In this document: positions 46,168 through 63,054 of the stretch, piece after piece
Layout: the number at the start of each line of letters is the position of its first letter
Position numbering within the stretch: the first letter of the stretch is position 1
Source: Burkholderia lata
Lineage (GTDB): Bacteria > Pseudomonadota > Gammaproteobacteria > Burkholderiales > Burkholderiaceae
Direction: 5' to 3'
Assembly (NCBI RefSeq): GCF_000012945.1
Contig: NC_007509.1
Location: 248,001-312,000, forward strand
DNA length: 64,000 nt
Position numbers and translations under genes: made by a program
The notes under the pieces: generated by a model
Told to the model about the DNA's origin: nothing
The model's database searches: none
What the model saw: the letters and a program-made list of their open reading frames with translations, nothing else

Positions 46168-46181
46168 TGGTCAAATGACCA
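46168..46181. promoter_or_regulatory. operator site 1, perfect palindrome TGGTCA-AA-TGACCA
   Basis: A perfect 6+2+6 palindrome about 250 bases before the ALDH start. It is followed by TGTCAAGTGATCTA, which closely resembles the sequence after site 3 (AGTCGGATGATCTA). The same palindrome core recurs upstream of the second BVMO. This is the form expected of a dimeric helix-turn-helix regulator (GntR, TetR or MarR type). Confidence 0.6.
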
Positions 46182-46431
46182 TGTCAAGTGATCTACATGC
46201 CTGTTTCATCCCCAATTGGACGTCATCGCTCGAGCGTGGACGTTCCCAAGGTGGGCAAGATTGTGTGAACGCTTCAGGGGCGGCGCGGAATTCGGCGCAC
46301 ACCGGCCACCGGAAGTCCGGCGAAATCTTGGGGGGAGGGAGCAGGCGCCCGCGTATCGACACCTGAGCCGTTTTCGCCTGTCGGCTGAAAGTGCCTCGGT
46401 TGAAAAACAAGAATTTCTGGAGACAGTGCTC

Positions 46432-47934
46432 GTGGATGAACTGCACAGCAGGAAGAACGAAGTGATTGACCCCTCGGCGCTACGCGCCCGGCTGCGAGAC
46501 GGCGCCCTGCTGGAGACGCGCGCCTGGCTGGCATCGGGATGGCAGGAAGGCACGGATGGTCGCTCGTTTCCCGTCACGAATCCGGCCACGGGTGACATCC
46601 TGGCTCGCGTTGCCAGCCTCGGCGCTGCGGAGGTTGAGCAAGCCATCGAATCGTCGGCGCTTGCACAGCAAGGCTGGCAGAAACGGACCAGCCACGAACG
46701 CGCAAAGCTGTTGCGCGCGTGGTTCGACTTGATCCTGGCGAATGCCGACGATCTCGCCTTGATCATGACGTCGGAGCAGGGCAAGCCGCTGGCAGAGGCC
46801 CGCGGCGAAATCACGTATGCCGCTTCTTTTGTGGAGTGGTTCGCCGAAGAAGCGAAGCGTGTCTACGGCGACGTCATGCCTCACCCGCAAGGTGACAAGC
46901 GCATCCTCGTCATCCGTCAGCCGATCGGCGTGTGTGCCGCGATCACGCCGTGGAATTTCCCGGCCGCGATGATCACGCGCAAGGTCGCGCCGGCACTGGC
47001 CGCGGGCTGTTCCATCATCGTGCGCCCGGCCGACCTGACGCCGCTGACGGCGCTTGCGCTTGCCGTCCTCGCCGAGCGAGCGGGCATTCCGGCGGGTGTC
47101 CTTCAAGTGGTGTGTGGCCCGTCGCGCGAGATCGGCGCGGTGCTGACGGCGAGCCCGGTGGTGCGCAAGCTTTCGTTCACCGGTTCGACCGAAGTGGGCC
47201 GCGTGCTCATGAGCCAATCGTCCGGAACGATCAAGCGGCTCTCTCTCGAGCTCGGCGGCAACGCACCTTTCATCGTGTTCGACGACGCGGATCTCGACGC
47301 AGCGATTGAAGGGGCGATGGCGTCGAAATACCGGAATAGCGGTCAGACCTGTGTTTGCGCCAATCGCTTTCTTGTCCAGGCAGGCATTCACGACCGTTTC
47401 GTCGAGGCGCTCACCCGGCGAGTCCAGGCGCTCAAGGTAGGGAACGGCATCGAGCCGGGCGTGCAGCAGGGGCCGCTGATCCAGAAGTCCGCCTGCGACC
47501 ACCTGAATCAGCTGATCGACGATGCGGTAAGCAAGGGCGCACGCATCGTCACCGGCGGGAAAGGCCATCCGCTCGGGGGCACGTTTTTCGAGCCGACCGT
47601 CATTGCCGATGCGACGCCGGCCATGCGTCTCGCGCGCGAGGAGCTCTTCGGGCCCGTCGGCCCGGTGTTCCGCTTCGACGATGAAGCAGAAGCGATCGCG
47701 ATGGCCAACGACACCGAGTACGGGCTCGCCGCCTATCTCTATACGCGTGACAACAGCCGCATCTGGCGTGTGGGCGAGGCACTCGAGTACGGCATGGTCG
47801 GCCTGAATACCGGCGTGATTTCCAACGAGGTCGCGCCGTTCGGCGGAGTCAAGCAATCGGGCCTGGGCCGGGAGGGTTCCCGTTATGGAATCGAGGAATA
47901 CCTGGAAATCAAGTACATGTGCTCCCAGGTCTAA
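46432..47934 (+). CDS. NAD(P)-dependent (semi)aldehyde dehydrogenase, GabD-like
   Basis: A 500-residue ALDH most like succinate-semialdehyde dehydrogenases. It shows 'I-T-P-W-N-F-P-A-A-M-I-T-R-K', 'F-T-G-S-T-E-V-G', general base E273 in 'L-E-L-G-G-N-A-P', nucleophile C307 in 'G-Q-T-C-V-C-A-N-R', 'E-E-L-F-G-P-V' and 'P-F-G-G-V-K-Q-S-G-L-G-R-E-G'. It starts at GTG 46432, with GGAG nine bases upstream. In this operon it should oxidise an omega-oxo acid or aldehyde made by the neighbouring ADH from the alcohol released by BVMO and esterase. The operon continues with the Fe-ADH 29 bases on. Confidence 0.92.
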   Translation: MDELHSRKNEVIDPSALRARLRDGALLETRAWLASGWQEGTDGRSFPVTNPATGDILARVASLGAAEVEQAIESSALAQQGWQKRTSHERAKLLRAWFDLILANADDLALIMTSEQGKPLAEARGEITYAASFVEWFAEEAKRVYGDVMPHPQGDKRILVIRQPIGVCAAITPWNFPAAMITRKVAPALAAGCSIIVRPADLTPLTALALAVLAERAGIPAGVLQVVCGPSREIGAVLTASPVVRKLSFTGSTEVGRVLMSQSSGTIKRLSLELGGNAPFIVFDDADLDAAIEGAMASKYRNSGQTCVCANRFLVQAGIHDRFVEALTRRVQALKVGNGIEPGVQQGPLIQKSACDHLNQLIDDAVSKGARIVTGGKGHPLGGTFFEPTVIADATPAMRLAREELFGPVGPVFRFDDEAEAIAMANDTEYGLAAYLYTRDNSRIWRVGEALEYGMVGLNTGVISNEVAPFGGVKQSGLGREGSRYGIEEYLEIKYMCSQV

Positions 47935-47963
47935 CTGCCAAAGTCTGCATCAAGGAAACGTCA

Positions 47964-49130
47964 ATGGAAATGTCCCCGCAATCGATGCTCTTCGAAACTG
48001 TTCCGTCCATTCTCCAGGAATGGGGGTGTGTACGCCGCTTGGGTCAGGTGATGGCGGCCTGGACGGAGCGCCGTCATGTCCTGATCGTGACCGACGCGGG
48101 GCTGCACAACGCCGGTGTGCTGGAACCGGCGAAAGCGTCGTTGGCAGCCGAGGGATTCCGTGTGGCGGTTTTTGATGAGGTCGTGGCCGACCCGCCGGAG
48201 AGCGTGGTCTCGCGCTGCGTCGAGTTCGCGCGCGGTGCGGAGGCGGATATCGTCATCGGCCTGGGCGGCGGCTCGTCGATGGACATTGCAAAACTGGCCG
48301 CCGTGCTCACCGTCTCGCGGCAATCGCTCGCGGAAATGTACGGAATCGGCAACGTGAAGGGCGCACGGCTGCCATTGGTGCAGATCCCTACGACGGCCGG
48401 TACCGGATCGGAAGTCACCAACATTTCCATCGTTTCGGTTAACGAAACAACCAAGATGGGCATCGTCTCACGTCAGCTGTATGCCGACAAAGTGATCCTG
48501 GACGCCGAATTGACGGTCGGTCTGCCGCGCAGCCATACCGCCGCGACGGGCATCGACGCGATGGTCCACGCCATCGAGGCCTATACCAGCAAGCACAAGA
48601 AGAATGCCCTCTCCGACGCGCTTGCGCGTGAGGCTCTGCGATTGCTGGTGAGCAACCTGATCCCGGCTTGCGAAAACGGTCACGACCGGCATGCACGCGA
48701 GGCAATGCTGCTGGGCGCCACGCTGGCGGGGCAGGCCTTCGCCAATGCCCCGGTGGCCGCGGTCCATGCGCTCGCGTATCCGTTGGGGGGCCATTTCCAT
48801 ATCCCGCATGGCTTGTCCAACGCATTGATGCTTGGCCCCGTGCTGCGATTCAACGCCGAAGCGGCCGCTTCGCATTATTCGGAACTGGCAGACGTCGTAA
48901 GCGTGGGTGGAACGGGCGACGCCACGGCGCGCACGGCGGCGTTCATCGCATTCCTGGAAGACCTGATGGACCGATCCGGCGCGCCGCGACGTCTGCGCGA
49001 CGTGGGTGTCACGCAGGCGAGCCTGCCGACCCTGGCGGCCGATGCGATGAAGCAGCAGCGCCTGCTGTTGAACAATCCGGTCGTTGTCACGGAGTCGGAC
49101 GCATTGCGCCTGTATGAACAGGCCTATTGA
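47964..49130 (+). CDS. iron-containing alcohol dehydrogenase
   Basis: A 388-residue group III (Fe) alcohol dehydrogenase. The NAD site is 'G-L-G-G-G-S-S-M-D-I-A-K', the middle has 'P-T-T-A-G-T-G-S-E-V-T', and the metal ligands come from 'T-G-I-D-A-M-V-H-A-I-E' and 'A-V-H-A-L-A-Y-P-L-G-G-H-F-H-I-P-H-G'. It interconverts an alcohol with an aldehyde or ketone. Coupled to the preceding ALDH, the expected flow is alcohol to aldehyde to acid. The ATG at 47964 follows CAAGGAAA. The BVMO gene begins 52 bases after its stop. Confidence 0.92.
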   Translation: MEMSPQSMLFETVPSILQEWGCVRRLGQVMAAWTERRHVLIVTDAGLHNAGVLEPAKASLAAEGFRVAVFDEVVADPPESVVSRCVEFARGAEADIVIGLGGGSSMDIAKLAAVLTVSRQSLAEMYGIGNVKGARLPLVQIPTTAGTGSEVTNISIVSVNETTKMGIVSRQLYADKVILDAELTVGLPRSHTAATGIDAMVHAIEAYTSKHKKNALSDALAREALRLLVSNLIPACENGHDRHAREAMLLGATLAGQAFANAPVAAVHALAYPLGGHFHIPHGLSNALMLGPVLRFNAEAAASHYSELADVVSVGGTGDATARTAAFIAFLEDLMDRSGAPRRLRDVGVTQASLPTLAADAMKQQRLLLNNPVVVTESDALRLYEQAY

Positions 49131-49182
49131 ACCGACGCCGGAAAATCCGCAGTCGCCGTAATGTAAATAGAGAGAGTGCACC

Positions 49183-50646
49183 GTGAACAATGTAGAAAGG
49201 ATTGAGCACCACGAGATCGTTATCCTGGGTGCAGGCTTCGGAGGCCTCGGCATGGCCGCTCGCATGAAGATCGCGGGCATCGACGACTTCGTCGTGCTGG
49301 AGAAGCGTCCCGATCTCGGCGGCGTCTGGCTGGACAATTCGTATCCCGGCGCGGCATGCGATACCGAATCGCACCTGTACTGCTACAGCTTCCATCCGCA
49401 TTTGCGCGTGAGCGCCATGTATGCCGGCCGGAATGAGCTGCTGCACTATTTGAAATCGCTTGCCACGCGGTTCGACCTCGCAGAACACCTGCGATTCGAC
49501 ACCGAGATTCGCAGTGCCGAATGGGATGCAAGTGCAAGCGTCTGGCGGTTCGAGCTGAACGACGGTTCCCGGATGACCTCGCGATTCTTCGTGCCGGCCT
49601 GGGGGCAACTGAATCGCCCGATGATCCCGGCGGTGCGCGGCCTGGCGGATTTCAACGGCGAGTATTTCCACTCCGCCGAGTGGCGGCACGACGTGGACTT
49701 GACCGGCAAGCGCGTGGCAAGCATCGGCAACGCCGCCAGCGCCGTGCAGTATGTGCCGCTCATCGCGCCGAAGGTCGATCACCTGACGGTATTCCAGCGC
49801 AGCGCGAACTGGATCATGCCGCGCAACCAGATCGTCTTCTCGACGGAGCAGCTCGATACCTACGAGCGCGAGCCCCATCTTTTCGAAGAAAGCAGGAAAT
49901 CGCTGCACGCGTTCCGCGAGTCCGGGTTCGAGCGGACACGGATGGGTTCGAACGCGCAGCTGGAAGGCAAGAGTCTCGCGTTGGCCCACCTTCATCGCCA
50001 GGTGCCCGACCCGGTCCTGCGCGAGCAGCTGACGCCGGACTATGAATACGCGTGCAAGCGGATTCTGCGATCGGACGACTACTATCCGGCGCTCATGCGC
50101 GACAACGTTGCGCTGGAAACGGCGGGGGTGGAGTCGTTCGTCGACGAAGGCATCGTGACCCGGGACGGCCGTCTGCTCCCGTTCGACGTGGTCGTGTTCG
50201 GAACCGGGTTCGAGAGCCAGGCGTTCCAGGGCAGCCTGCAGGTTCGCGGGACGGACCGCACGTTGGCCCAGGCTTGGGCAGACGGCCCGGAAGCCTATCT
50301 GGGCATGACCGTGCCGGGCTTCCCGAACATGTTCATGTTGTACGGGCCGAACACCAACCTGAACCACAACTCCATCGTGTCGATGCTCGAGATCCAGCAG
50401 AACTACATCATCGACGCGATCGGCGGCATGGCGTCGGCCGGCGTGAAGGCAGTCAGCGTCGACAGCGGCGTGTTCGACGCATACAACGACAAGCTGCAAT
50501 CGGCGATGGCCGGCTCGGCGTTTTCGGCGGGCTGCTCGAGCTGGTACAAGAACGCACAAGGCAAGGTGATCAACAACTGGCCGGGCACGGTGGACGAGTA
50601 CCGCGCGGCGACGCAATGGGATCAAAGCGTGTTCGCGGCGATCTGA
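49183..50646 (+). CDS. flavin-containing Baeyer-Villiger monooxygenase (BVMO 1)
   Basis: A 487-residue FAD/NADPH monooxygenase. The FAD motif is G16-A-G-F-G-G21; the BVMO fingerprint F-x-G-x3-H-x3-W is complete at F157-N-G-E-Y-F-H-S-A-E-W167; the NADPH motif 'G-N-A-A-S-A-V-Q' follows. Such enzymes insert oxygen next to a carbonyl, turning a ketone into an ester or lactone. The length is that of type I BVMOs without an N-terminal extension. It is followed after 12 bases by an esterase, the standard pairing for ester or lactone opening. Only 37% or so of the sequence can be judged from motifs, so the ketone is unknown. Confidence 0.9.
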   Translation: MNNVERIEHHEIVILGAGFGGLGMAARMKIAGIDDFVVLEKRPDLGGVWLDNSYPGAACDTESHLYCYSFHPHLRVSAMYAGRNELLHYLKSLATRFDLAEHLRFDTEIRSAEWDASASVWRFELNDGSRMTSRFFVPAWGQLNRPMIPAVRGLADFNGEYFHSAEWRHDVDLTGKRVASIGNAASAVQYVPLIAPKVDHLTVFQRSANWIMPRNQIVFSTEQLDTYEREPHLFEESRKSLHAFRESGFERTRMGSNAQLEGKSLALAHLHRQVPDPVLREQLTPDYEYACKRILRSDDYYPALMRDNVALETAGVESFVDEGIVTRDGRLLPFDVVVFGTGFESQAFQGSLQVRGTDRTLAQAWADGPEAYLGMTVPGFPNMFMLYGPNTNLNHNSIVSMLEIQQNYIIDAIGGMASAGVKAVSVDSGVFDAYNDKLQSAMAGSAFSAGCSSWYKNAQGKVINNWPGTVDEYRAATQWDQSVFAAI

Positions 50647-50658
50647 GCGGAGAGGCAC

Positions 50659-51642
50659 ATGACATCAGTGCACTGGTTGCCGCTGACGGAGGTGGCTGAC
50701 GATGCCCGGGACGCCGTTCGGGCGTTCCGCGAACTGGGCGGACGACACTACGGCAGCTTTTCCGTCGACCAGTCGCGCGTGAACTTCGTGCGTGCGTGCG
50801 AATTGAACGGCCTCACGGGCGACGAGGCGGTTGTCCACGAAGACATCGATGTTCCCGTCGCAGGCGGCAGCATTCGGGTACGGCTCTATCGCCCGCCCGC
50901 CGGGGCGAGTGCCGACGGCAACCCGCTTGTCGTCTTCATTCACGGCGGCGGGTGGGTGATCGGCAGCGTGGACACGCATGATGGCATCTGCCGGCATCTC
51001 GCACGGCATGGCGGGTGTGCCGTCGCTTCGGTGGAGTACCGGCTATCGCCGGAGCACCGGTGGCCGGTCCCGCTCGAAGACTGCGAGCAGGCATTGGACT
51101 ATCTGACGGCCAACGCTGCTGCGCTCTCCATCAATGCGTCCCGGGTGATCCTGGCGGGCGACAGCGCCGGCGGCAATATGGCGACCCTCATCGCCAATGC
51201 GGCATCGGTGGCGGGGCCCGCGATCATCGGGCAGGTCCTGTTTTATCCCGTGACCGACCTGACGGCGTCACTTCCGTCATACCGGCGCATTCAAGGCGGA
51301 TTTCCGCTTGTCGCCGAGTCGATGCTCTGGTTCCGGGAGCACTACGTGCCGGACGGCACGCCATTTGATCTTCCACGCCTGTCCCCGCTGCTGCATGCGG
51401 AAGGCCGGCGGCAGCCGCCGATGTTCATGGCAACGGTGGGGCTGGATCCGTTATGTGACGAAGGCATCGCCTACGCGTCATGCGCGGCCCGCGCCGGGAG
51501 CCAGGTCGAGCATCACCATCTGCCCGGGCACCATCACGGCATCGTCACCGCGGCCCGTGCTATCCCGGCAGCGAGATACCTGCTGGATCGCGCTGCTTCC
51601 TTCGTTCGGCGGCTCGCCGAAAAAGACGGTTGCGATGCTTGA
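50659..51642 (+). CDS. alpha/beta hydrolase, HSL family esterase 1
   Basis: A 327-residue esterase of the hormone-sensitive-lipase type. The oxyanion motif H95-G-G-G is followed by 'V-E-Y-R-L-S-P-E-H'. The nucleophile is S169 in 'G-D-S169-A-G-G', and the catalytic His lies in the C-terminal 'G-H-H-H-G-I'. There is no signal peptide, so it is cytoplasmic. It lies 12 bases after BVMO 1 and would cleave the ester or lactone that BVMO makes. It ends the first operon; the next 340 bases carry two operator-like palindromes and no gene. Confidence 0.9.
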   Translation: MTSVHWLPLTEVADDARDAVRAFRELGGRHYGSFSVDQSRVNFVRACELNGLTGDEAVVHEDIDVPVAGGSIRVRLYRPPAGASADGNPLVVFIHGGGWVIGSVDTHDGICRHLARHGGCAVASVEYRLSPEHRWPVPLEDCEQALDYLTANAAALSINASRVILAGDSAGGNMATLIANAASVAGPAIIGQVLFYPVTDLTASLPSYRRIQGGFPLVAESMLWFREHYVPDGTPFDLPRLSPLLHAEGRRQPPMFMATVGLDPLCDEGIAYASCAARAGSQVEHHHLPGHHHGIVTAARAIPAARYLLDRAASFVRRLAEKDGCDA

Positions 51643-51753
51643 CGCTTCGATCGTCGCACAGGCATGGAGCATGCAACCTTCGCGACGGATCGTGTAATGG
51701 AAACTCCTGATTCAAATTATCCCTCGACTGCATAGACTGGGAACCGTTGGACT

Positions 51754-51767
51754 TGGTCAATTGATCA
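51754..51767. promoter_or_regulatory. operator site 2, TGGTCA-AT-TGATCA
   Basis: Same 6+2+6 layout as the site at 46168 with one mismatch (TGATCA for TGACCA). It lies in the otherwise empty 51643-51982 interval before BVMO 2, 152 bases upstream of site 3 (centre to centre). Confidence 0.5.
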
Positions 51768-51905
51768 TGTTCAGAGTGGCGGGTCAAATCGGGATGCGCA
51801 CATCAATGACTCGCGTGCGTGTCCGGTCGGGTGCGTAGGTGGCTGCCTCGTGCTGGTTTGAAGCGGTGTCGCTGGCATACACGTGTGGGCGTATTTTTCC
51901 TCTGT

Positions 51906-51919
51906 AGTCACATGACCAA
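51906..51919. promoter_or_regulatory. operator site 3, TAGTCA-CA-TGACCA
   Basis: Same layout with one mismatch (TAGTCA for TGGTCA). It is followed by AGTCGGATGATCTA, similar to the sequence after site 1, so about 33 bases are shared between the two promoters. It lies about 64 bases before the BVMO 2 ATG, a position that fits repression or activation at its promoter. Confidence 0.55.
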
Positions 51920-51982
51920 GTCGGATGATCTAGTCGTGCGGCGTTACGGATATTTTCAATAACTGGTCATCGGAGGGATCTC

Positions 51983-53473
51983 ATGACTAAGAATCAAGCA
52001 GATTCGTGTTCGCCTGAGCACGTAGAGGTACTAATCATCGGGGCGGGGATCTCGGGGATCGATGCCGCTTGCCATCTCCGCATGAACCTGCCGGACCGCT
52101 CGTTCGCCATCCTGGAAGCGATGGATGGATTCGGCGGTACGTGGTGGACCCATCGCTACCCCGGCGCGCGTTCCGACAGCGACCTGTACACGTATGCGTT
52201 CGGCTTTCGCCCGTGGCAGGGCCGCTCGATCGCGACGGCAGACGAGATCCACAGCTATCTGGGCGATGTCATCAAGGAGTATGACCTCGGCTCGAAGATC
52301 CGCTACGGGCATCGTGTTCAAACGGTGAGCTGGTCAAGCGAACAGAAGCGCTGGACGGTCGAGGTATCGCGCAACGATACGGGCGAACACTTCTCGATCA
52401 CCACCGACTTCCTGTGGCTGGGGGCCGGGTACTACGACCATCGCCAGGGCTTTACGCCGAAGTGGAACGGGTTCGATCGCTACAAGGGAACGGTCATTCA
52501 CCCGCAGCACTGGCCGGAAGACCTCGACTATGCCGGCAAGCGCGTGGTCGTGATCGGCTCGGGCGCGACGGCCGCGACGCTGATTCCGGCGATGGCCGGC
52601 ACCGCGGCGCACGTGACGATGCTGCAACGGTCGCCGACGTTCTTCACGGCGGTTCCCTGGACCCACCAGCTGGACGCGACGCTTCGCGAACTGAGCCTGC
52701 CCGAAGAATGGCGCTCCGAGATTCTGCGGCGTGCGCACCTGAAGCAGACGTTCGACCTGATCAACCTGGCCGCAGCGAACCCGGACGCCGTTCGCGACTG
52801 GCTGATCAACGAGACCCGGCAACAGCTGCCGGAAGGGTTCGACGTCGACAAGCACTTCAACCCCGGCTATCGCCCGTGGCAGCAGCGCGTGGCGGCGGTG
52901 CCCGAGGGCGACCTCTTCACGGCCATCCGGGACGGGAAAGCGTCCGTCGTGACGGACACCATCGAATCGTTCGACGAAAACGGCATCACGTTGGCGTCGG
53001 GCGAGCACCTGCAGGCGGACATCGTCGTGACGGCGACCGGCTTCGATATGAGCGCTTTCGGCCAGATCGCGTTTCACGTCGACGGCGATCCGGTCGACAT
53101 GACCAAGCGGGTCTCGTATCGCGGAATGATGATCGAGGGTATCCCGAACATGGCGTTCATCTACGGCTACTACCGGTCGAGCTGGACGCTGCGCGCCGAT
53201 CTCGTCTGCGAATTCACCTGCCGCGTCCTGGCGCATATGGACAAGGTGGGGGCGAAGACGGTGGAACCGCGCCTGCGCGCCGAAGACGCCGACATGCAGC
53301 GGCTGCCGTGGACGGACCCGAACAACTTCAATGCCGGGTACGTGATGCGGTCGCAACACCAGATGCACTCGCGTGGCGATCGCATGCCGTGGCAGCACCA
53401 CTTCGAGTACGAGGAGGAGCGCCAGACCATTCCGGAATTGAGCCCGGATGCCGAAGTCCTCGTGTATCGCTGA
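51983..53473 (+). CDS. flavin-containing Baeyer-Villiger monooxygenase (BVMO 2)
   Basis: A 496-residue FAD/NADPH monooxygenase, only distantly similar to BVMO 1. The FAD motif is G20-A-G-I-S-G25. The BVMO fingerprint appears with Tyr in first position: Y167-K-G-T-V-I-H-P-Q-H-W177. The NADPH motif is 'G-S-G-A-T-A'. 'T-A-T-G-F-D-M' near residue 350 is also typical. This branch includes the EtaA-like enzymes, which accept aliphatic and cyclic ketones and sulfides. The ATG follows GGAGGGATCTC. It is paired with its own esterase, repeating the order of the first operon. Confidence 0.9.
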   Translation: MTKNQADSCSPEHVEVLIIGAGISGIDAACHLRMNLPDRSFAILEAMDGFGGTWWTHRYPGARSDSDLYTYAFGFRPWQGRSIATADEIHSYLGDVIKEYDLGSKIRYGHRVQTVSWSSEQKRWTVEVSRNDTGEHFSITTDFLWLGAGYYDHRQGFTPKWNGFDRYKGTVIHPQHWPEDLDYAGKRVVVIGSGATAATLIPAMAGTAAHVTMLQRSPTFFTAVPWTHQLDATLRELSLPEEWRSEILRRAHLKQTFDLINLAAANPDAVRDWLINETRQQLPEGFDVDKHFNPGYRPWQQRVAAVPEGDLFTAIRDGKASVVTDTIESFDENGITLASGEHLQADIVVTATGFDMSAFGQIAFHVDGDPVDMTKRVSYRGMMIEGIPNMAFIYGYYRSSWTLRADLVCEFTCRVLAHMDKVGAKTVEPRLRAEDADMQRLPWTDPNNFNAGYVMRSQHQMHSRGDRMPWQHHFEYEEERQTIPELSPDAEVLVYR

Positions 53474-53505: not shown

Positions 53506-54456
53506 ATGGCACTCGATTTGCACCTCGCTGGTTTTCTCGAATCCCTTGCCGGGTCCGGCGCGAAACCGCTGCCGCAGTCCAGCCCGGAAGAGGCTCGTGG
53601 ATTGATGCAGCATCTGGCGCGCGCCGTTCGCGCACCGGAGGCCGTGGTCGACGTTCACGGCGTGGAAGACCTGACCGTTCCCGGCGCGACCGGATCGCTG
53701 CGGGCGCGGCTGTACCGTCCGACCCAGGAGCGCAATCTGCCGACGGTCGTCTATCTCCATGGCGGCGGATTCGTCATCGGCGATCTGGATACGCACGACA
53801 ACATTTGCCGGGAGCTGGCGCGCGGCGCCAACGCGGTCGTCGTCTCGGTGGATTACCGGCTGGCGCCGGAGCATCCGTATCCGGCCGCGGCGGACGATGC
53901 GATTGCCGCCACCAAATGGGTCATCGCGAACGCGGGTGAGCTGGGCGGCAGCGACGTGGTGGCGGTGGCCGGAGACAGCGCCGGCGGCAATCTGGCCGCG
54001 GTCGTGACCCAGCAACTGCACGCCGACGGCATTTCGCTGTCCGCGCAGTTCCTGATCTACCCCGCGGTCGCGCAGGATCGCGCCGGCTTTCCTTCCTTCA
54101 AGGAAAACGGCGAAGGCTACTTTCTCGACCTCGAGACGATCGCCTGGTTCGAGCGACATTACGTGCTCGACGGTACCGACCGGGAGGATCCGCGACTGGC
54201 GCCGATCCGTGCGAAGGACCTTGCCGGGTTGCCGCCTGCCGTCATCCTGACCGCCGAATTCGATCCGCTGCGTGACGAGGGCGAGGCCTATGGCCGCTTG
54301 CTCCACGCGAGCGGCGTCAAGGTCGACACGATCCGGTGCGACGGCATGATTCACGGCTTCTTCGACATGGGGGCAATTTCCCCGGGCGCCCAGGCGTGGA
54401 TCGAGAAGGGCATCGCGAGCTTTCGAAAGGTACTCGGCGGCGCGCAGCACCATTGA
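53506..54456 (+). CDS. alpha/beta hydrolase, HSL family esterase 2
   Basis: A 316-residue HSL-type esterase: oxyanion loop H85-G-G-G, 'V-D-Y-R-L-A-P-E-H-P-Y-P', nucleophile S158 in 'G-D-S-A-G-G-N', acid in 'A-E-F-D-P-L-R-D-E', and His in 'I-H-G-F-F'. No signal peptide. It begins 32 bases after BVMO 2 behind AAAGGTGAAG. It is not a close copy of esterase 1, so the two BVMO/esterase pairs look like parallel functions, perhaps for two ketone intermediates or substrate sizes, and not a fresh tandem duplication. Confidence 0.9.
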   Translation: MALDLHLAGFLESLAGSGAKPLPQSSPEEARGLMQHLARAVRAPEAVVDVHGVEDLTVPGATGSLRARLYRPTQERNLPTVVYLHGGGFVIGDLDTHDNICRELARGANAVVVSVDYRLAPEHPYPAAADDAIAATKWVIANAGELGGSDVVAVAGDSAGGNLAAVVTQQLHADGISLSAQFLIYPAVAQDRAGFPSFKENGEGYFLDLETIAWFERHYVLDGTDREDPRLAPIRAKDLAGLPPAVILTAEFDPLRDEGEAYGRLLHASGVKVDTIRCDGMIHGFFDMGAISPGAQAWIEKGIASFRKVLGGAQHH

Positions 54457-54678: not shown

Positions 54679-56298
54679 GTGAAGAACTCATTCGATTATC
54701 TTGTTGTAGGCGGCGGCTCGGCAGGCAGTGTGCTGGCTTCGCGTTTGACCGAAGACCCCGATGTGACGCTCTGCCTCTTCGAAGCCGGCGGCACCGGCGA
54801 TGGATGGCCCATCAACGTGCCGGCCGCGCTGGTGCTGATGGTCCCGTCCCGGCTGAACAACTGGGCGTTCGAGACGGTGCCCCAAAAGGGGCTGCAGGGG
54901 CGACGCGGCTACCAGCCGCGCGGCAAGGCGTTGGGCGGATCGTCGGCGATCAATGCGATGGTGTACACGCGCGGCCATCATGCCGACTACGACGATTGGG
55001 CCGCGCTTGGCAACGAAGGCTGGGCCTGGAACGACGTCTTCCCCTATTTCAAGCGAAGCGAACACAACGAGCGCCTCGGCAATGAATGGCACGGGCGCGG
55101 CGGCCCGCTGTGGGTCAGCGACCTCAGGACGGGCAATCCGTTTCAGGGCCGTTGGCTGGAGGCCGCGCGTCAGTGCGGCTTGCCCATCACGGACGATTTC
55201 AACGGTGCGGAGCAGGAAGGCGTCGGCATCTACCAGGTGACCCAGAAGAATGGCGAGCGCTGGAGTGCGGCACGTGCCTATCTCTTTCCGCACATGAAGG
55301 CCCGCGGCAACCTGACGGTGGAGACGGGCGCGCAGGTCAGGCGCATCGTGTTCGACGGCAAACGGGCCGTTGGTGTCGAGGTCACGCGTGGGGGGAATGT
55401 CGAGACGGTCTGGGCGAAGAAGGAGGTGATCCTTTCCGCGGGCGCGTTTCAATCGCCTCAGTTGCTGATGTTGTCCGGCGTCGGGCCGAAGGACGAACTC
55501 GAGCGTCACGGGATCAAGGTCGTCGCCGATCTCCCGGGCGTGGGGGAGAACCTGCAGGATCACCCGGACTTCGTTGTCAGCTACAAGACGAACAGCCTGG
55601 ACGCGCTGGGGGTATCGGTACGCGGCGGGATCAAGACGTTGCGCGACATCCGGCAATACCGGGCGTCGCGGGACGGCACGATGACGACCAACTTCGCGGA
55701 AGGCGGCGCCTTCCTGAAGACGCGTCCCGATCTGGAGCGACCGGACGTTCAGATGCACTTCGTCGTGGGGCCCGTCAGCGATCATGGAAGGAAGGTGCAG
55801 CTCGGACATGGTATTTCGTGTCACGTGTGCCTGCTGAGGCCGAAAAGCCGTGGATCGGTCAAGCTGCGAAGCGCCGATCCGCTGGACGCGCCGTTGATCG
55901 ACCCGGCATTCCTCGAGCACGCGGATGATATCGAAGTCCTGCTCGAGGGCTACAAGCTGACCCGGCGGTTGATGGCGGCGCCCGCCATGTCCCAGTTCGT
56001 GACGGAAGACCTGTTCGCGTCCCGGTCGCGATCGGACGACGACATTCGTGCGTTGCTGCGCGAACGGACCGACACGGTGTACCACCCGGTAGGAACGTGT
56101 CGCATGGGGAACGATGCGCTCGCCGTCGTCGACGCTGAGTTGCGCGTACGGGGAACGGAAGGCTTGCGTGTGGTCGATGCCTCCATCATGCCGACGCTGG
56201 TGGGTGCGAACACGAATGCGCCGACTATCATGATTGGGGAGAAAGCCTCGGATCTGATCCGGAGGATCTCGCGATTCCCGGTTGCGATGTCGGCGTGA
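54679..56298 (+). CDS. GMC-family FAD oxidoreductase (choline dehydrogenase-like)
   Basis: A 539-residue alcohol dehydrogenase/oxidase of the glucose-methanol-choline family. The FAD motif is G11-G-G-S-A-G16; the GMC signature 'R-G-K-A-L-G-G-S-S-A-I-N-A-M' lies near 80; the catalytic His is H469 in 'Y-H-P-V-G-T-C-R-M-G', and the second active-site position falls in 'G-A-N-T-N-A-P-T'. GTG 54679 is preferred because AGGA lies nine bases upstream and the family starts 'F-D-Y-L-V-V-G-G-G'; an upstream ATG (54637) has no site. It is the last gene of the BVMO cluster and could make the ketone substrate from an alcohol. Confidence 0.92.
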   Translation: MKNSFDYLVVGGGSAGSVLASRLTEDPDVTLCLFEAGGTGDGWPINVPAALVLMVPSRLNNWAFETVPQKGLQGRRGYQPRGKALGGSSAINAMVYTRGHHADYDDWAALGNEGWAWNDVFPYFKRSEHNERLGNEWHGRGGPLWVSDLRTGNPFQGRWLEAARQCGLPITDDFNGAEQEGVGIYQVTQKNGERWSAARAYLFPHMKARGNLTVETGAQVRRIVFDGKRAVGVEVTRGGNVETVWAKKEVILSAGAFQSPQLLMLSGVGPKDELERHGIKVVADLPGVGENLQDHPDFVVSYKTNSLDALGVSVRGGIKTLRDIRQYRASRDGTMTTNFAEGGAFLKTRPDLERPDVQMHFVVGPVSDHGRKVQLGHGISCHVCLLRPKSRGSVKLRSADPLDAPLIDPAFLEHADDIEVLLEGYKLTRRLMAAPAMSQFVTEDLFASRSRSDDDIRALLRERTDTVYHPVGTCRMGNDALAVVDAELRVRGTEGLRVVDASIMPTLVGANTNAPTIMIGEKASDLIRRISRFPVAMSA

Positions 56299-56910
56299 AA
56301 TCCGGCATCGCGGTTTGACTGGCCCTCTCTCGTGCCGACCTGCGCCGGCACGAAGGCATCAAGCGGACACGGACGTTGCGAGCAAGGTGTATGCAGCGAC
56401 GTCCGCTGCCTGAATGCAAGGGCCAACTGGCCGGTTGACGCGAGGCTGGACGCTGCTGGGGCATCTCGAGCCTCCTGGCGTCGAACGCTTGAGCCGCGAG
56501 GTCGGGCGACGCAGCCAACCGCCGATCATGAAAGCATCCTTGTTCCTGGAAGAACAAGGCGAGCACGAGGAACGCGATGTCGCCACCCGAAGCCCGGATG
56601 CCGGGTGGCGACCTGTGTGTGCCAACCACCGGAGAAAGACCGGTGCTTGCTTCGCGGCGATGCGTCGCCGCAACCAACGAACCAACGAACCAACGAACCC
56701 ATCAGCCGATCGACCTTGCTCGGCGTCCGGCCTGTCCGGGTGCAGGAAATAGTCTTCCCCCGCCTCTATCCCGATGGCTTCGGCATGCGTCACGCCGAAC
56801 GCTGCTTTCAACTCGTCGAGTCGTGCCAGCGAACCTTGACCCCATCCGGCGTCGAATGCTGCCCGGAAGGTGTTCACGCGCGCGAAAGGCGACGACTCGG
56901 AAATTCAAAC
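56299..56910. other. intergenic region with tandem repeat and a possible minus-strand gene fragment
   Basis: About 610 bases between the GMC gene and the response regulator. On the minus strand about 55 codons from 56890 down to 56720 look coding ('N-T-F-R-A-A-F-D-A-G-W-G-Q', 'L-A-R-L-D-E-L-K-A-A-F-G-V'), but I do not recognise them. The frame degenerates where it meets the 8-bp repeats. It may be the remains of a lost gene. Confidence 0.35.
56673..56699. repeat. 8-bp tandem repeat (ACCAACGA)x3 plus partial
   Basis: Three exact ACCAACGA units (56673-56696) and a partial fourth. An 8-bp unit shifts the frame with each gain or loss. It is not inside a recognised gene. Confidence 0.8.
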
Positions 56911-57600
56911 ATGCACTCGCTCATACTCATCGCGGATGACGCACCGGAAATGGCGTCAACGCTCGATACCTGCCTGACTCGCAACGGGTTTCGAACCTTT
57001 CAGACCAACACCTCCCAGGCCGTGCTTGCCACGCAACTGAACCTGAAGCCGGATCTGGTCATTCTCGACGTCCGTGAACTGTGTGCGGATACCCTGGACA
57101 TGCTGGCCAGGCTTCGACGACAAAGCGATACCCCCATCGTCGTCATGTCGGCGTGTGATCTGGACGGGGAGCGGCTGCGTGCACTGCACGCCGGCGCTGA
57201 CGACTACATCGTCAGGCCGTTCAACCCGGATGTAGTCGTCGCGCGATTGCTCACGATGCTTCGCCGCTCTGGTGCGCTCGCGCCTGAACGCCGTCTCCGG
57301 GTTGGCGCGCTCGAAGTCGATACGGAAAGCTATAGGGTGGGCGTGCGGACGTCCTCCGGTGAAGCGCCGGTTTCCGTGACACTCGTCGAATTCCGCCTGC
57401 TGGCCCACATGGCCAGGCTGCCGAATCGGGCATTTACGCGCATCGAATTGCTCAATGCATGCATGACAGACGTAAGCACATCCACACGCACCGTCGACAG
57501 CCACATGACCCGGCTACGGAAAAAGCTGGTGGCCGCAGGGGCGTCGGGCATCCTGGAATGCGTGCACGGCGTCGGCTATCGCCTGCAAAAAGCCGGCTGA
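56911..57600 (+). CDS. OmpR/PhoB-type response regulator, orphan, with Lys-to-Arg change
   Basis: A 229-residue two-domain regulator. The receiver has the acidic pair D9-D10, phospho-acceptor D53 in 'V-I-L-D-V-R' and 'M-S-A' with the switch Ser. The normally invariant Lys before Pro-Phe is Arg102 ('Y-I-V-R-P-F'). A winged-helix domain fills residues 128-229 ('L-V-E-F-R-L-L', 'R-T-V-D-S-H-M-T-R-L-R-K-K-L', 'V-H-G-V-G-Y-R-L'). No histidine kinase gene adjoins it. The altered Lys and missing kinase suggest reduced or absent phosphorylation control. It stands between the BVMO cluster and the transport genes and might control either. Confidence 0.88.
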   Translation: MHSLILIADDAPEMASTLDTCLTRNGFRTFQTNTSQAVLATQLNLKPDLVILDVRELCADTLDMLARLRRQSDTPIVVMSACDLDGERLRALHAGADDYIVRPFNPDVVVARLLTMLRRSGALAPERRLRVGALEVDTESYRVGVRTSSGEAPVSVTLVEFRLLAHMARLPNRAFTRIELLNACMTDVSTSTRTVDSHMTRLRKKLVAAGASGILECVHGVGYRLQKAG

Positions 57601-57949: not shown

Positions 57950-58924
57950 TTACTGCGCGACGACCCCGTCGCGAGAAAAAACCAGCCACTTGTCGCCAGG
58001 CGAGGGGAGTGCCGCGGTGTACGTCGTCCCGGTCTGGGTGTTCAGGCGCTGGAACGTCTTTCCATCATCGGTGCTTTGAGCCTGCAGCCCGTCGACGCCC
58101 ACTGCCAATACCGTGGAGCCTCGGGACGCGAGCGCGGTAATGGAATTTTTGGTGTCGAGCGTCGCGCGTGACCAGGTGTGGCCGTTGTCCTCGCTTCGCA
58201 TCAACGTGCCGCGCAGCCCGCCGACCAGCAGCACACCATTGGGCAGCGCCACACCGCACCAGAACGACCCCTTGTACCCGGTCTCCACGTTCTCCCAGGT
58301 GTTGCCCTTATCCTTGGAGATGAAGAGTTGCCCCTTCTCGGCCGTAGCAAAGATCTCGCCATTGCTGTTCGAAAAAAGACCGAACAGATTCAGGTCCGAC
58401 TTCTTGCCGTTCGGGAGAACGGCTTCCTTTTTTGTCCAGGTCTTGCCGCCGTCATCGGTGACGAGGATGAGCGACCAGAGTCCGACGGCCACGCCGTGGT
58501 CGGCATCGATGAAGTGAACGCCGAACAGCGGGCGATCCTCGGTCGTCGCGAGACGCTGAACCTCCCACGTCTCGCCGCCGTCGGTCGTCTTCAGGATCGC
58601 GCCCCAGTGGCCGACTGCCCACCCCGTCCGGGCGTCGATGAAACTGACGGACGTCAGTGTCGAGCTCACGGGCACCGCCTTGGCCTGGCGGTACGTCGCA
58701 CCGCGGTTGTCGGACAGCAGGATGATGCCGTTTGCGCCGACACTTACCACCCGCTGGCCTGCCCACGTCGCATCCAGCACCGGGGACTGCGTCGCGATGC
58801 TGGACTGGACGGCCGGAACGGGCTTGAGTTCCGATGCGGATACCGCGCTTTGCATGCCGCCCAGCAGCGCGCCGAAGACGACGATACTGGCCGACAGGGA
58901 GAGAACCTTGCGATTCATGGTCAT
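57950..58924 (-). CDS. YCF48/HCF136-like beta-propeller, periplasmic
   Basis: A 324-residue exported protein. A signal peptide ends near 'V-S-A-S' (residue 30). The rest consists of repeated blades with 'D-G-G-K-T-W', 'D-K-G-N-T-W', 'D-N-G-H-T-W' and 'W-A-V-G' or 'V-A-V-G' motifs, as in the photosystem-II assembly factor YCF48 and BNR-repeat proteins. In non-photosynthetic bacteria such proteins accompany RND/DUF1302/DUF1329 genes. It probably acts as a periplasmic assembly or adaptor part of that system. It starts 16 bases after the RND stop with site GAAGAGGA and is the last gene of the operon. Confidence 0.85.
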   Translation of the reverse strand: MTMNRKVLSLSASIVVFGALLGGMQSAVSASELKPVPAVQSSIATQSPVLDATWAGQRVVSVGANGIILLSDNRGATYRQAKAVPVSSTLTSVSFIDARTGWAVGHWGAILKTTDGGETWEVQRLATTEDRPLFGVHFIDADHGVAVGLWSLILVTDDGGKTWTKKEAVLPNGKKSDLNLFGLFSNSNGEIFATAEKGQLFISKDKGNTWENVETGYKGSFWCGVALPNGVLLVGGLRGTLMRSEDNGHTWSRATLDTKNSITALASRGSTVLAVGVDGLQAQSTDDGKTFQRLNTQTGTTYTAALPSPGDKWLVFSRDGVVAQ

Positions 58925-58940: not shown

Positions 58941-61340
58941 TCAATGTGCGAGCAGGCCGGGTGCGCGCGCGGGCCGGCGGCGCGGGAAGATGCGCTCGAG
59001 CCAGACGGCGAAGGCGGGCAGGACCGTCATGGCCATGACCATGTTGACGATGAACATGAACGCCAGGAGCTTGCCCATGTCCGCCTGGAACTTGAGCTCG
59101 GAGAACGACCAGGTGGCGACGCCGATAGCGAGCGTGATGGCCGTAAAGATGGTGGCCGTCCCGATCTCGAGGATCGATTGTTCGAGCGCCTTGACGATGC
59201 CGACACCGTTGGCGAGATGCAGCTGCAGCCGGTTGTAGATATAGAACGCATAGTCGACGCCGATGCCCACCGCCAGCACCATCACGGGCAGCGTGGCGAC
59301 GGTCAGGCCGATCTGCAGCTCCTTCATGAACCAGTAGCCGATGAACGTGCCGATCGTCAGTGGCAGGCAGCATGCGAGGACCGCGCGCAGGTCACGGTAC
59401 GTGACGAGGACGAGCAGGACGATGGTCGTATAGACGTAAAGCATCATCGGCAATTCGCTGCGCTCGATTTCGTCGTTGACCGCGGCCAGCACGCCGGCGT
59501 TTCCGGAGGCGAGCCGGATCTTCACGCCCGGCAGCTTGTTCGTATCGCGGAAATGCTTCGCGGCGTTGATCACCTGGGTGATCGTGGTCGCCTTGTGGTC
59601 GGCCAGATAGATGTTCACCGCGGTCATGCTGCAGTCCTTGCGCATGACGCCGGGCGTGCGGGCCACCTCGCCGGCCAGCGATGAATAGTTGTCGGGGTCG
59701 ATGGGGATCGCCGACATCTTGGGATTGCCTTCGTTGTACCCCTCGTTGTATTGCCGCAGCAACGACGAGAACGAAACGACCGACAACACGCCGGGGACGG
59801 CACGCATCGACCAGACGAAGCGATCCTGATAGGCACCGACTTCCACGTTGTTGCAAGACTGGGGAGGCGCTTCGAAGACGATGGAAATCCAGTCGAGGCC
59901 GACGTCGTAGCTCGACGCAATGGACACCGAATCCTTGTTGAACCGGGCGTCGGCGCGAAGCTCGGGCGCGCCTGCCTGCAGCGTGCCGACGACGCGATCC
60001 CGGCTTTCCCAGGCCGCCACGCAGAACACCACGACGGCCGCCAGCAGGATGATCGCGGCATTGCGCGGAATGGCGACTTTTGCGAGAACCCGGAGCACGC
60101 GGCCACGACGAGCGGCATGCAGCTCCGCATTCTTTGCATAATTGCCGTCGACCTTGAGCATCGACGCTGCCAGCGGGAGCATCACCAGGTTCGTGACGAT
60201 CTTGTACGCCACGCCGAGCGACGCGGTGATCGCGAGCTCGCGAACCATCGGGATCGGAATCAGGATCAGCGTGACGAAGGAAACGAACGCGGTCACCAGG
60301 GCGAGCGTGCCGGGAATCAGCAGCCCGCTGAAGCTGGACCGAGCGGCTTGCTCGACCGACTTGCCATGGGAGATCTCGCGAACGATGAAATTGATCTGCT
60401 GGACGCCGTGCGACACGCCGATCGCGAACACGAGGAACGGAACCAGCACGCCCAACGGGTCGAGCCCGTAGCCGAGGAGATGCAGCGTGCCGAACTGCCA
60501 GACGAGCGAGACCAGCGAGCATGTCAGCGGCAGGATCGTCAGGCGAATGGAGCGGCAGTACCAGTAGACGGCCAACGCGGTCAGGAGCAGGGCGATCGCG
60601 CAGAACTTCAGGACGGACGATGCGCCGTTTGCGATATCGCCAATCTGTTTCGCGAAGCCGATGATCTGGATTTCATAGTTCGAATCCTCGAACTTCGATC
60701 GCAACTGCGCTTCGAGCGCCTGATCGAATGCCACATAGTCGACCCGCTCACCTTTGGCATCCAGCTCGTTGAGGTCGGCGGTGACCATTGCGCTGCTCTG
60801 GTCGCGCGACACGAGGCTGCCGACGAAGCCGCCCTGGGCCGTCGAGCGCGAAATGGCGCCGACCGTGTTGCTGTCGAGCTGATCGGGCGTCACGGTGCCG
60901 GGAATGAGCGGGTCGGCCCGGAATCCGTCTTCGGTAATCTCGTTGACGAACGAATTCGGAGTCCAGAGCGATTGAACGCTGCTGCGAGACACGTTCGGCA
61001 GGAACGTGACCGCCTGGGTGACTTCATACAGGCGCTTCAACGCATCCGGCGTCCAGATGCTGCCCTTGCGGGCCTTGACGACGACGATCAAACGGTTGGC
61101 GCCGAGCAGGTCGCCGCGATACTCGTTGAACGTCTGCGTGTATTCGTGGCCGAGCGGAAGCTGCTTCTCGAACCCGGCGTCCATGCGAAGCTTGACGGCG
61201 AAGCAGGCCATGACGACCGTGAAGAGAACCAGAAGCCCCAGAACGAGACGCCTGTGACCGAACAGCGTATTTTCCAGCGAATGAAGAATTCTTAGCAGCT
61301 TGCTGGGCCGGGCTGCGTCGGGAACAGGCGTTTGATTCAT
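58941..61340 (-). CDS. RND-superfamily (MMPL/HpnN-like) transporter
   Basis: A 799-residue inner-membrane transporter. A first helix ('L-V-L-G-L-L-V-L-F-T-V-V-M-A-C-F') is followed by a large periplasmic loop. A block of five helices (about 255-420) includes 'P-F-L-V-F-A-I-G-V-S-H-G-V-Q'. A second periplasmic loop and a second block (about 640-780), with 'V-G-I-G-V-D-Y-A-F-Y-I-Y', complete the twofold RND/MMPL plan. Such proteins move lipids or hydrophobic molecules with the proton gradient (compare the hopanoid transporter HpnN). I start it at 61340 (site GAGGTCAAT), 7 bases after the DUF1302 stop. The genes on both sides make it the engine of an envelope system. Confidence 0.88.
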   Translation of the reverse strand: MNQTPVPDAARPSKLLRILHSLENTLFGHRRLVLGLLVLFTVVMACFAVKLRMDAGFEKQLPLGHEYTQTFNEYRGDLLGANRLIVVVKARKGSIWTPDALKRLYEVTQAVTFLPNVSRSSVQSLWTPNSFVNEITEDGFRADPLIPGTVTPDQLDSNTVGAISRSTAQGGFVGSLVSRDQSSAMVTADLNELDAKGERVDYVAFDQALEAQLRSKFEDSNYEIQIIGFAKQIGDIANGASSVLKFCAIALLLTALAVYWYCRSIRLTILPLTCSLVSLVWQFGTLHLLGYGLDPLGVLVPFLVFAIGVSHGVQQINFIVREISHGKSVEQAARSSFSGLLIPGTLALVTAFVSFVTLILIPIPMVRELAITASLGVAYKIVTNLVMLPLAASMLKVDGNYAKNAELHAARRGRVLRVLAKVAIPRNAAIILLAAVVVFCVAAWESRDRVVGTLQAGAPELRADARFNKDSVSIASSYDVGLDWISIVFEAPPQSCNNVEVGAYQDRFVWSMRAVPGVLSVVSFSSLLRQYNEGYNEGNPKMSAIPIDPDNYSSLAGEVARTPGVMRKDCSMTAVNIYLADHKATTITQVINAAKHFRDTNKLPGVKIRLASGNAGVLAAVNDEIERSELPMMLYVYTTIVLLVLVTYRDLRAVLACCLPLTIGTFIGYWFMKELQIGLTVATLPVMVLAVGIGVDYAFYIYNRLQLHLANGVGIVKALEQSILEIGTATIFTAITLAIGVATWSFSELKFQADMGKLLAFMFIVNMVMAMTVLPAFAVWLERIFPRRRPARAPGLLAH

Positions 61341-61347
61341 ATTGACC

Positions 61348-63054
61348 TCAGAAATTTCGAGATGCGACGATTGCCACGAAGTCTCGATCACGTAGCGGGT
61401 TGGCCAGCGGGTTGGTCGGGCCCATGAAGCGCGTGTAGTTCAATGCGACCTGCCAGTTCGCCGGGTTCTGTATGAAATTCACATACAGGTTCATCGCCGT
61501 CACGCCGCGCATGAACTGGGCATTCACGTTCGGCGTATTGCCGAAGAGGCCGTAGCGGACGTAAATCCCCGGATTGACCTGCCACCCGGGAATGACCGTG
61601 CCGTCGTAAACCCAGTTGAAATCGACGTCGATCCCGCCGGAGTATTTCGTTCCCTGCGCACTACCCGGCGAGTTGAGTGCGCCGGTCGCGAACAGGTCAT
61701 TGAACTCATTCCCCCACAGAAGCGCACCCGGAGAAATCGGCGACCCGCCATAGCTCTTGTGAAGCCCGGGATACGCAATGATCACCGTCTCGGTCGTCAG
61801 GGTGGCGGTCTGGGCGCCGAGCAGCTTGAGGAATGCACCGGAATTGCCCGGCTGGAGCGAGTAGAGGGTCGTCAGGTGCCACTGGAATCGCTTCTCGTCG
61901 ACCCAGCAGTTCCCCCCTTGCGCGACGCATCCACTGGCCGGATTCAGCGGAACGGCGTCTCGCGGACGGTACGAGAGCTCGGTGCCGATCGCCCAGTCGC
62001 CAACCGGGAAGTTGGCGCTGACACCGATCATGTGACGGTCTTCCGGAAACCGGAAGATCGTCCCGCCCGTCGAACTCAGCGACACTTGCGGGAACTTGTC
62101 GTGGTACGCGATCGTGTAGAAACCGAGATTCAGGTCCGTTCCCGCGGGCTGGTAGCGAATGGAAAAACCATACTGCCCGCCGTTCTTCGGATGGACGGTC
62201 GAGACGCCATACGCGTTGTTGCCGGGCCCGACGATCTGATTCGACCAATAGCTGCCAACCGGGGGCAGGTAATTCTGGTTCCAGTTGCTCTGGATGTACC
62301 CTTCGACGTTCACGCCGTGACCCACGCCGGACGCGACGCTCAGGATCGGTGCAGGCAGGATGAATTCCTTGACCTGCGCGCCGGGTTGGGACGCGCGATT
62401 CACGTCGATCGCATTCGTCGCATTGACCCCGCCAACTTCCCAGATGCTTTCGCCCCAGCTGACGACCTGGTTACCCACGCGGATGCGCGCAATCTGGTCG
62501 CCGACGTTGAACTGCTTGCTGACCCACAGGTCGAGCAAGCGCGGCTTGAAGCGGATGTTCTTCTCGGCGTCGGACGAGAGCCCGCCGTTCAGGCTGGGTG
62601 GCGGGTTATAGAAAAGGTTCTGCCCGCTGGTGGCACCTGTGGTGTGGGTGCCGGAGTAGTCGTATTGCCAGGTGCCACGTGCCATGAACGTGAGCCCCTG
62701 CGACGGCATCTTCAGGAGCAGCTCGTGGCTGCCCTTGAGATAGCTCGTGAACGGATCGCCCTTGCCGTAGTTGATGTCGCCCTGGTCGGAAAGGCCGCTC
62801 AATTGACCGAGTCGGCCACCACCGGTCTGCGCACCGGTGGCCGCATTGTAGGTCGGCGAGACGAGATTGCTGCTCGGCGAGGCAGTGCGAATGCCGACGC
62901 CCGCCGATACCGTCGAATCGAAACTGCCTTCGACATTCCCGATCGTGAACGTGAAGGCGTGCGCGCTGCCGCACCCGAGGGCGACAAGCGCCGAGATCGC
63001 CGCGCGCACGAAGACCACGCTGGATCGGGGCTGTAATGAGGTGGTGGTAGCCAT
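61348..63054 (-). CDS. DUF1302 family outer-membrane beta-barrel protein
   Basis: A 568-residue exported protein of the DUF1302 family. The signal peptide (residues 1-33, ending A-H-A) is followed by the family opening 'F-T-F-T-I-G-N-V-E-G-S-F-D-S-T-V-S-A-G'. 'V-R-I-R-V-G-N-Q-V-V-S-W-G-E-S' type sequence near residue 200 and alternating beta-strands to the aromatic C-terminus 'V-A-S-R-N-F' point to an outer-membrane barrel. No member has a settled function to my knowledge. It is encoded between DUF1329 and the RND transporter with gaps of 16 and 7 bases, so the proteins are made together. Confidence 0.88.
   Translation of the reverse strand: MATTTSLQPRSSVVFVRAAISALVALGCGSAHAFTFTIGNVEGSFDSTVSAGVGIRTASPSSNLVSPTYNAATGAQTGGGRLGQLSGLSDQGDINYGKGDPFTSYLKGSHELLLKMPSQGLTFMARGTWQYDYSGTHTTGATSGQNLFYNPPPSLNGGLSSDAEKNIRFKPRLLDLWVSKQFNVGDQIARIRVGNQVVSWGESIWEVGGVNATNAIDVNRASQPGAQVKEFILPAPILSVASGVGHGVNVEGYIQSNWNQNYLPPVGSYWSNQIVGPGNNAYGVSTVHPKNGGQYGFSIRYQPAGTDLNLGFYTIAYHDKFPQVSLSSTGGTIFRFPEDRHMIGVSANFPVGDWAIGTELSYRPRDAVPLNPASGCVAQGGNCWVDEKRFQWHLTTLYSLQPGNSGAFLKLLGAQTATLTTETVIIAYPGLHKSYGGSPISPGALLWGNEFNDLFATGALNSPGSAQGTKYSGGIDVDFNWVYDGTVIPGWQVNPGIYVRYGLFGNTPNVNAQFMRGVTAMNLYVNFIQNPANWQVALNYTRFMGPTNPLANPLRDRDFVAIVASRNF

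Follow-up and report, generated by a model that had tools for sequence, protein, structure and literature searches.

Upstream of two operons for Baeyer-Villiger monooxygenases (BVMOs) in Burkholderia lata lie three copies of a palindrome, which raises the question of whether they are operators and, if so, of which regulator and over which genes. The window, that is, the whole stretch of 64,000 nucleotides that we analyzed, corresponds to positions 248001-312000 of contig NC_007509.1 (C1) in a genome of 8.68 Mb on three contigs. A sequence-only reading had proposed that one dimeric regulator of GntR, TetR or MarR type acts on both operons. We computed the sites, their clustering, conservation and tandem form, their co-occurrence with TetR genes and the predicted TetR fold, and the evidence points to one regulator type, with TetR the best fit of the three offered; we put the probability that the palindromes are operators of a TetR-type regulon at about 0.9.

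Sites 1 (TGGTCAAATGACCA, 46168-46181, upstream of the operon that starts with the aldehyde dehydrogenase gene ALDH1) and 2 (TGGTCAATTGATCA, 51754-51767, the distal site upstream of BVMO2) were found exactly where the earlier reading had placed them. Site 3 (TAGTCACATGACCA, the proximal one, at 65 bp from the start of BVMO2) is also present, but it occupies 51905-51918, one base to the left of the 51906-51919 reported. The motif TGATCTA, said to be common to sites 1 and 3, begins 21 bases after the start of each. With up to two mismatches allowed, the pattern has five matches in the window against 1.26 expected, a number reached in none of 100 shuffles. Genome-wide, TGGTCANNTGACCA with up to one mismatch occurs at 10 places, compared with 4 for a reversed-pattern control, and 9 of these 10 fall within 36.7 kb (C1:294168-330884), a segment that begins inside the window and ends to the right of it. 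The Poisson probability of at least nine sites in 36.7 kb is approximately 1e-18, even when all 10 are counted as background. The palindrome is thus above genomic background at zero to one mismatches, and the likeness among the sites exceeds that of chance palindromes, as had been suspected. Six of the nine clustered sites are beyond the window's right edge, so the unit to be explained is an island rather than the window.

The idea of a lone palindromic operator held for the palindrome but not for its being alone: the operator is a tandem, in which a second, weaker copy follows 13 bp after the first. In a set of 82 sites with up to one mismatch, drawn from four Burkholderia genomes plus 28 non-Burkholderia loci, a second copy at +13 bp is 11.8 standard deviations above background. 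This figure overstates independence, since some of the sites are from related species. The operator consensus is TGGTCAnnTGACCAAGTCanaTGAtCa, with the core TGRTCAnnTGACCA. In the window, the second half of operator 1 (ATGTCAAGTGATCTA, 46181-46195, plus strand) stands in register +13, and that of operator 3 (AAGTCGGATGATCTA, 51918-51932, plus strand) is likewise a tandem copy; TGATCTA, contained in the former, is the end of the tandem's second copy. Three copies in a row occur at one Stutzerimonas locus (L124). Several promoters carry a proximal and a distal site, spaced 133 to 183 bp apart with no constant value. Looping between such sites finds no support because their spacing varies.

Sites with up to two mismatches precede nine genes of the B. 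lata genome (ALDH1, BVMO2, the aminotransferase gene AT4, ALDH2, TetR1, IRED1, AT3, PhyH2 and an acyl-coenzyme A (CoA) ligase gene), and at seven of these promoters the site has no more than one mismatch. The operator therefore does join the two BVMO operons, as claimed, but it is not limited to them. The AT4-operon operator lies outside the window, upstream of AT4. The sites are kept in front of orthologous operons. The ALDH1 site is exact in 9/9 aligned promoters, where column majority identity averages 0.64; the alignment has nine rows, since G057 is truncated in the joined sequence and G006 lacks an ALDH1 orthologue. G057 is a tenth ALDH1 orthologue with an exact site, 247 bp before the gene, and the sites of G006 precede the alcohol dehydrogenase gene FeADH. 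The distal BVMO2 site is kept in 11/11 orthologues and the proximal one in 10/11, always 65 bp from the start. Sites are also kept at conserved distances from the start before AT4, ALDH2 and TetR1 (11/11 each), IRED1 (distal 11/11, proximal 10/11), AT3 (9/9; two genomes, G029 and G059, have no AT3 in the fetched stretches) and PhyH2 (9/11). Conservation exceeds that of the flanks at ALDH1 and at the distal IRED1 site.

The sequence-only reading had seen no GntR, TetR or MarR gene in the window, and we found none among the window genes scanned with Pfam, which do not comprise every open reading frame. Two adjacent TetR genes, however, lie in the island just beyond the window, 3.9 and 5.1 kb past its right edge and both on the minus strand: TetR1 (C1:315944-316543) and TetR2 (C1:317129-317758). 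They match the TetR helix-turn-helix family PF00440 with 42.5 and 41.2 bits, respectively (curated cut-off 24), and are predicted to adopt an all-helical TetR fold (pLDDT, a model confidence score, of 88). The two proteins are paralogues (52% identity overall) whose recognition regions are identical and whose ligand domains have diverged. Predicted operators stand near the TetR1 gene and near the proposed targets in this genome, in orthologues and in other genera. No GntR or MarR gene was found among the island proteins scanned with Pfam, again a part of the open reading frames.

Of 65 congeneric genomes, 11 have orthologues of TetR1 and TetR2, and none has just one of the two. The exact palindrome occurs in 16 of the 65, comprising 11/11 genomes with the TetR genes and 5/54 without them (Fisher P 4.9e-9). 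The TetR-positive genomes hold 31 exact sites, 30 of them within the island; the five TetR-less genomes hold one site each, and a tblastn search of the 15-19 kb around these five sites found no relative of the TetRs or of any other island protein. BVMO1 matches of at least 89% and BVMO2 matches of at least 92% are confined to the same 11 genomes, and the remaining matches among those listed are at 42-61%; the TetR-less genome G034, for example, has a BVMO2 relative at 61% and no exact palindrome. In a family-wide sample of 398 genomes, the TetR was found in 11 (10 in the genus, 1 outside).

The acyl-CoA ligase gene (L013:5139-6803 and orthologues) provides a natural experiment, because its position varies: in some genomes it belongs to the ALDH1 operon, and in others it lies at the island's far end. 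A set of 10 genomes was available, as the fetched stretch of G048 yielded no ligase gene. Where the ligase gene stands alone at the far end, it has its own operator (4/4 genomes); where it is part of the ALDH1 operon, after Est1, it has none (0/6). Outside the operator, too, the solo ligase promoter is similar to that of ALDH1, and it looks like a copy of it.

The pairing of TetR and operator extends beyond the genus. A scan with the TetR1/TetR2 alignment gave 35 loci: 7 from Burkholderia, 4 from two Paraburkholderia genomes and 24 of Pseudomonas type, including one labelled Pantoea and one Stutzerimonas. The locus in the record labelled Pantoea sp. Cy-639 (L116) is much like the Pseudomonas ones, and the label may therefore be wrong. 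A site with up to two mismatches lies within 700 bp upstream of TetR in 24/24 Pseudomonas-type loci (2/24 for the reversed control), and one with up to a single mismatch in 23/24. We also scanned 10 genomes, from 10 of the 28 non-Burkholderia loci, with the extended pattern TGRTCANNTGACCAWGTC, and found it at one or two places per genome, 12 in all. Nine of these are inside TetR loci, two (in Paraburkholderia) precede ALDH1, and one (L126) lies 142 bp before a DUF1329 gene that shares a contig with the TetR gene, at a distance of about 17 kb. DUF1329 is encoded within 23 of the 24 Pseudomonas-type loci, and the 24th (L107) has its DUF1329 gene at this distant place. PhyH and BVMO2 relatives flank TetR in 14 of the 24 loci, and in the other 10 the exporter genes alone matched; a single TetR relative was seen per locus (up to 20 kb). 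One of the 14, L117, was scanned with Pfam and contains DAO, PhyH, BVMO, hydrolase, FeADH, permease, aldehyde dehydrogenase, class III transaminase and imine-reductase-like proteins.

Several results weigh against a TetR regulon of this extent. With up to two mismatches, the pattern has 91 places genome-wide and the control 79; because this count is close to the control, weak matches outside the cluster carry no meaning, and two of the five window matches (at 33742, and at 52331 inside BVMO2) are weak and of this background kind. Conservation within Burkholderia is not independent evidence, because the orthologous loci are close relatives. The conservation of the AT4 site does not exceed that of its flanks (half of all windows equal it), the proximal BVMO2, proximal IRED1 and distal AT3 sites are only modestly better kept (20-24% of windows equal them), and secondary sites are patchy (PhyH2 proximal 2/11, TetR1 distal 4/11, AT3 proximal 4/9). 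Orthologous promoters of GMC, YCF48, IRED2, the response regulator, the P450-reductase fusion, TetR3 and TetR2 itself contain no site, and one TetR1 relative (G029) differs inside the recognition region. Finally, the Pseudomonas loci are not a random sample of TetR genes, because the search used a helix-turn-helix motif. The P450-reductase fusion and the adjoining third TetR gene (TetR3) are at L013:7746-10937 (C1:333746-336937), and six aligned orthologues of the fusion show no palindromic operator before it.

The weak matches near background, the close relatedness of the orthologous loci and the several sites no better kept than their flanks are what would be seen if chance palindromes had simply been retained by common descent. 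We reject this origin as having a negligible probability, given the clustering of 9/10 genomic sites in one island, the co-occurrence with TetR, the conservation above flanks at the ALDH1 and distal IRED1 promoters, the seven promoters with a site of up to one mismatch in a single genome (nine with up to two) and the recurrence of the same site in other genera. Another candidate for binding the palindromes is an OmpR-type response regulator encoded inside the window (56905-57600), with DNA-binding and receiver domains. It is present in the island at 11/11 Burkholderia loci, and a relative at 53% lies near the Paraburkholderia ALDH1 operon. However, tblastn at E 1e-15 or better detected no relative in any of the 24 operator-bearing Pseudomonas-type loci (each up to 20 kb), the response regulator's own promoter lacks a site, and OmpR types usually bind direct repeats; we therefore consider it very unlikely to bind the palindromes. 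No sensor kinase was seen beside the response regulator gene among the scanned genes.

TGGTCA...TGACCA recalls the half sites of FadR-type GntR proteins, and a GntR or MarR regulator from another part of the genome could in principle bind it. One would not expect so distant a regulator to follow an accessory island, and the exact sites track the TetR genes (11/11 versus 5/54 genomes) and TetR relatives in other genera, which makes this explanation equally improbable. A less remote variant keeps the TetRs and changes their roles: one would repress, and the other, with the same recognition region, would compete with it or activate. Paralogues that share a recognition region, and by inference one operator, while differing in their ligand domains would suit such a switch pair, as would the proximal and distal sites of several promoters. 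Beside the same operator in Pseudomonas-type loci, however, only one TetR relative is seen (up to 20 kb), and most studied TetRs are repressors (PMC3511530). We regard a switch pair as rather unlikely and favor two TetRs of like function; for these, repression is considerably more probable than activation.

We infer binding by TetR1 and TetR2, repression, an inducer, the operon limits and a pathway as follows. TetR1 and TetR2 very probably bind the same sequence, TGRTCAnnTGACCA with its weaker copy 13 bp on, and the bound proteins would hold down the operons of an accessory island of 37 kb. The controlled units would be ALDH1-FeADH-BVMO1-Est1, BVMO2-Est2-GMC, AT4-DUF1329-DUF1302-RND-YCF48, ALDH2, TetR1 itself, IRED1-PhyH1-MFS, AT3, PhyH2 and, where it is solo, the acyl-CoA ligase. 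The TetRs would leave the operators when an inducer is present, probably a hydrophobic amine or ketone or a CoA ester. Among listed structures of TetR-type regulators, those of KstR and bacillary FadR include CoA-ester complexes.

The genes of the two BVMO operons are all on the plus strand. The first encodes the aldehyde dehydrogenase ALDH1 (46432-47934, PF00171), the iron-type alcohol dehydrogenase FeADH (47964-49130, PF00465/PF25137), the flavin monooxygenase BVMO1 (49183-50646; matches to BVMO-type enzymes) and the alpha/beta hydrolase Est1 (50659-51642, PF07859). The second encodes BVMO2 (51983-53473), which also matches BVMO-type flavin monooxygenases, the alpha/beta hydrolase Est2 (53506-54456, PF07859) and a GMC oxidoreductase (54685-56298, PF00732/PF05199, scanned as L011:14637-16298); the start codons of the last two were chosen in this analysis. 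Elsewhere in the island, AT3 is identical to the FumI aminopentol aminotransferase (PDB 6hbs) at 228/399 aligned residues (57%), AT4 is closest to amine transaminases, some of them (R)-selective, and IRED2 is closest to imine reductases. The PDB matches of IRED1 include imine reductases; neither it nor the imine-reductase-like enzyme of L117 has a RedAm-like_C Pfam match. The best PDB match of PhyH2 is named DhiD, on which we found no paper among open-licence PMC articles.

These matches suggest, tentatively and at somewhat less than even odds, a pathway from amine to ketone, ester, and alcohol plus acid, followed by CoA activation. A transaminase or imine reductase step would yield a ketone for BVMO, whose ester product would pass through esterase, alcohol and aldehyde dehydrogenases and CoA ligase. 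FumI belongs to fumonisin catabolism, and a transaminase of its kind deaminates hydrolysed fumonisin; the 57% identity of AT3 to FumI falls below the 61-74% that active fumonisin transaminases reportedly have in common with reference ones (PMC9858248). In L117, the single Pseudomonas locus compared in this respect, the class III transaminase is closest to diaminobutyrate transaminases rather than to FumI. This weakens the idea of a fumonisin-backbone substrate outside Burkholderia, and the substrate may differ between genera.

Four further window genes, all on the minus strand, form the end of the AT4 operon: DUF1329 (63071-64000, AmeB-like, continuing past the window end), DUF1302 (61348-63054, AmeA-like), MMPL/RND transporter (58941-61340, PF03176, AmeD-like) and, last, YCF48/BNR-repeat protein (57950-58924, AmeC-like), each with a Pfam match. 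The same adjacent set of DUF1302, DUF1329, YCF48-like and MMPL/RND genes makes up AmeABCD, a tetrapartite RND exporter that shields Castellaniella defragrans from monoterpenes (PMC6394551). The likeness is one of gene content, and the island set differs in following an aminotransferase gene under a palindromic operator. These genes thus resemble AmeABCD, and we presume that they export a hydrophobic substrate alongside the pathway, so that the regulon would serve both to catabolize and to export a hydrophobic amine or ketone. The regulatory arrangement recalls AtuR/RdmA of Pseudomonas (acyclic-terpene and diffusible signal factor degradation), TetR repressors with duplicate inverted repeats and an adjacent catabolic regulon (PMC9973270). 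The AtuR operators, AGCAAGCGCTTGG and CCAAGCGCTTGCT, are 40 bp apart, in contrast to TGRTCAnnTGACCA with its 13-bp tandem. Because the operators compared differ in sequence, we do not identify the island regulator with AtuR.

Outside the window, five TTGTCACGTGACAA palindromes lie within 1.3 kb (C1:1388446-1389767) among the two-mismatch matches listed. They resemble parS sites, suggesting a replicon origin, and C1 (1.395 Mb) may be a third replicon.

We did not recognize the operator or the island in open-licence PMC papers, a scope that does not establish absence from print. The unusual part of the proposed regulon is the likely sharing of one operator code by two paralogues. An island formerly read as two BVMO operons becomes a candidate regulon with a defined operator and likely regulators, and the same TetR-operator pair is met in genera from Burkholderia to Pseudomonas. 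The candidate regulon groups several enzymes that matter to biocatalysis (BVMOs, PhyH oxygenases and (R)-amine-transaminase-like, FumI-like and imine-reductase-like enzymes), and these probably constitute one co-induced pathway. A bolder joint proposal, which we consider improbable, is that the two duplicated TetRs, which would have one DNA code but ligand pockets of different kinds, act as a two-input gate on the accessory island. The island's enzymes would then convert a chiral sec-alkyl amine (R-CH(NH2)-CH3) of the sphinganine-analogue or fumonisin-backbone type to acetate plus an acid, starting with a transaminase or an imine reductase and continuing with BVMO, esterase and dehydrogenase steps. 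If this were true, imine reductases would gain a physiological setting.

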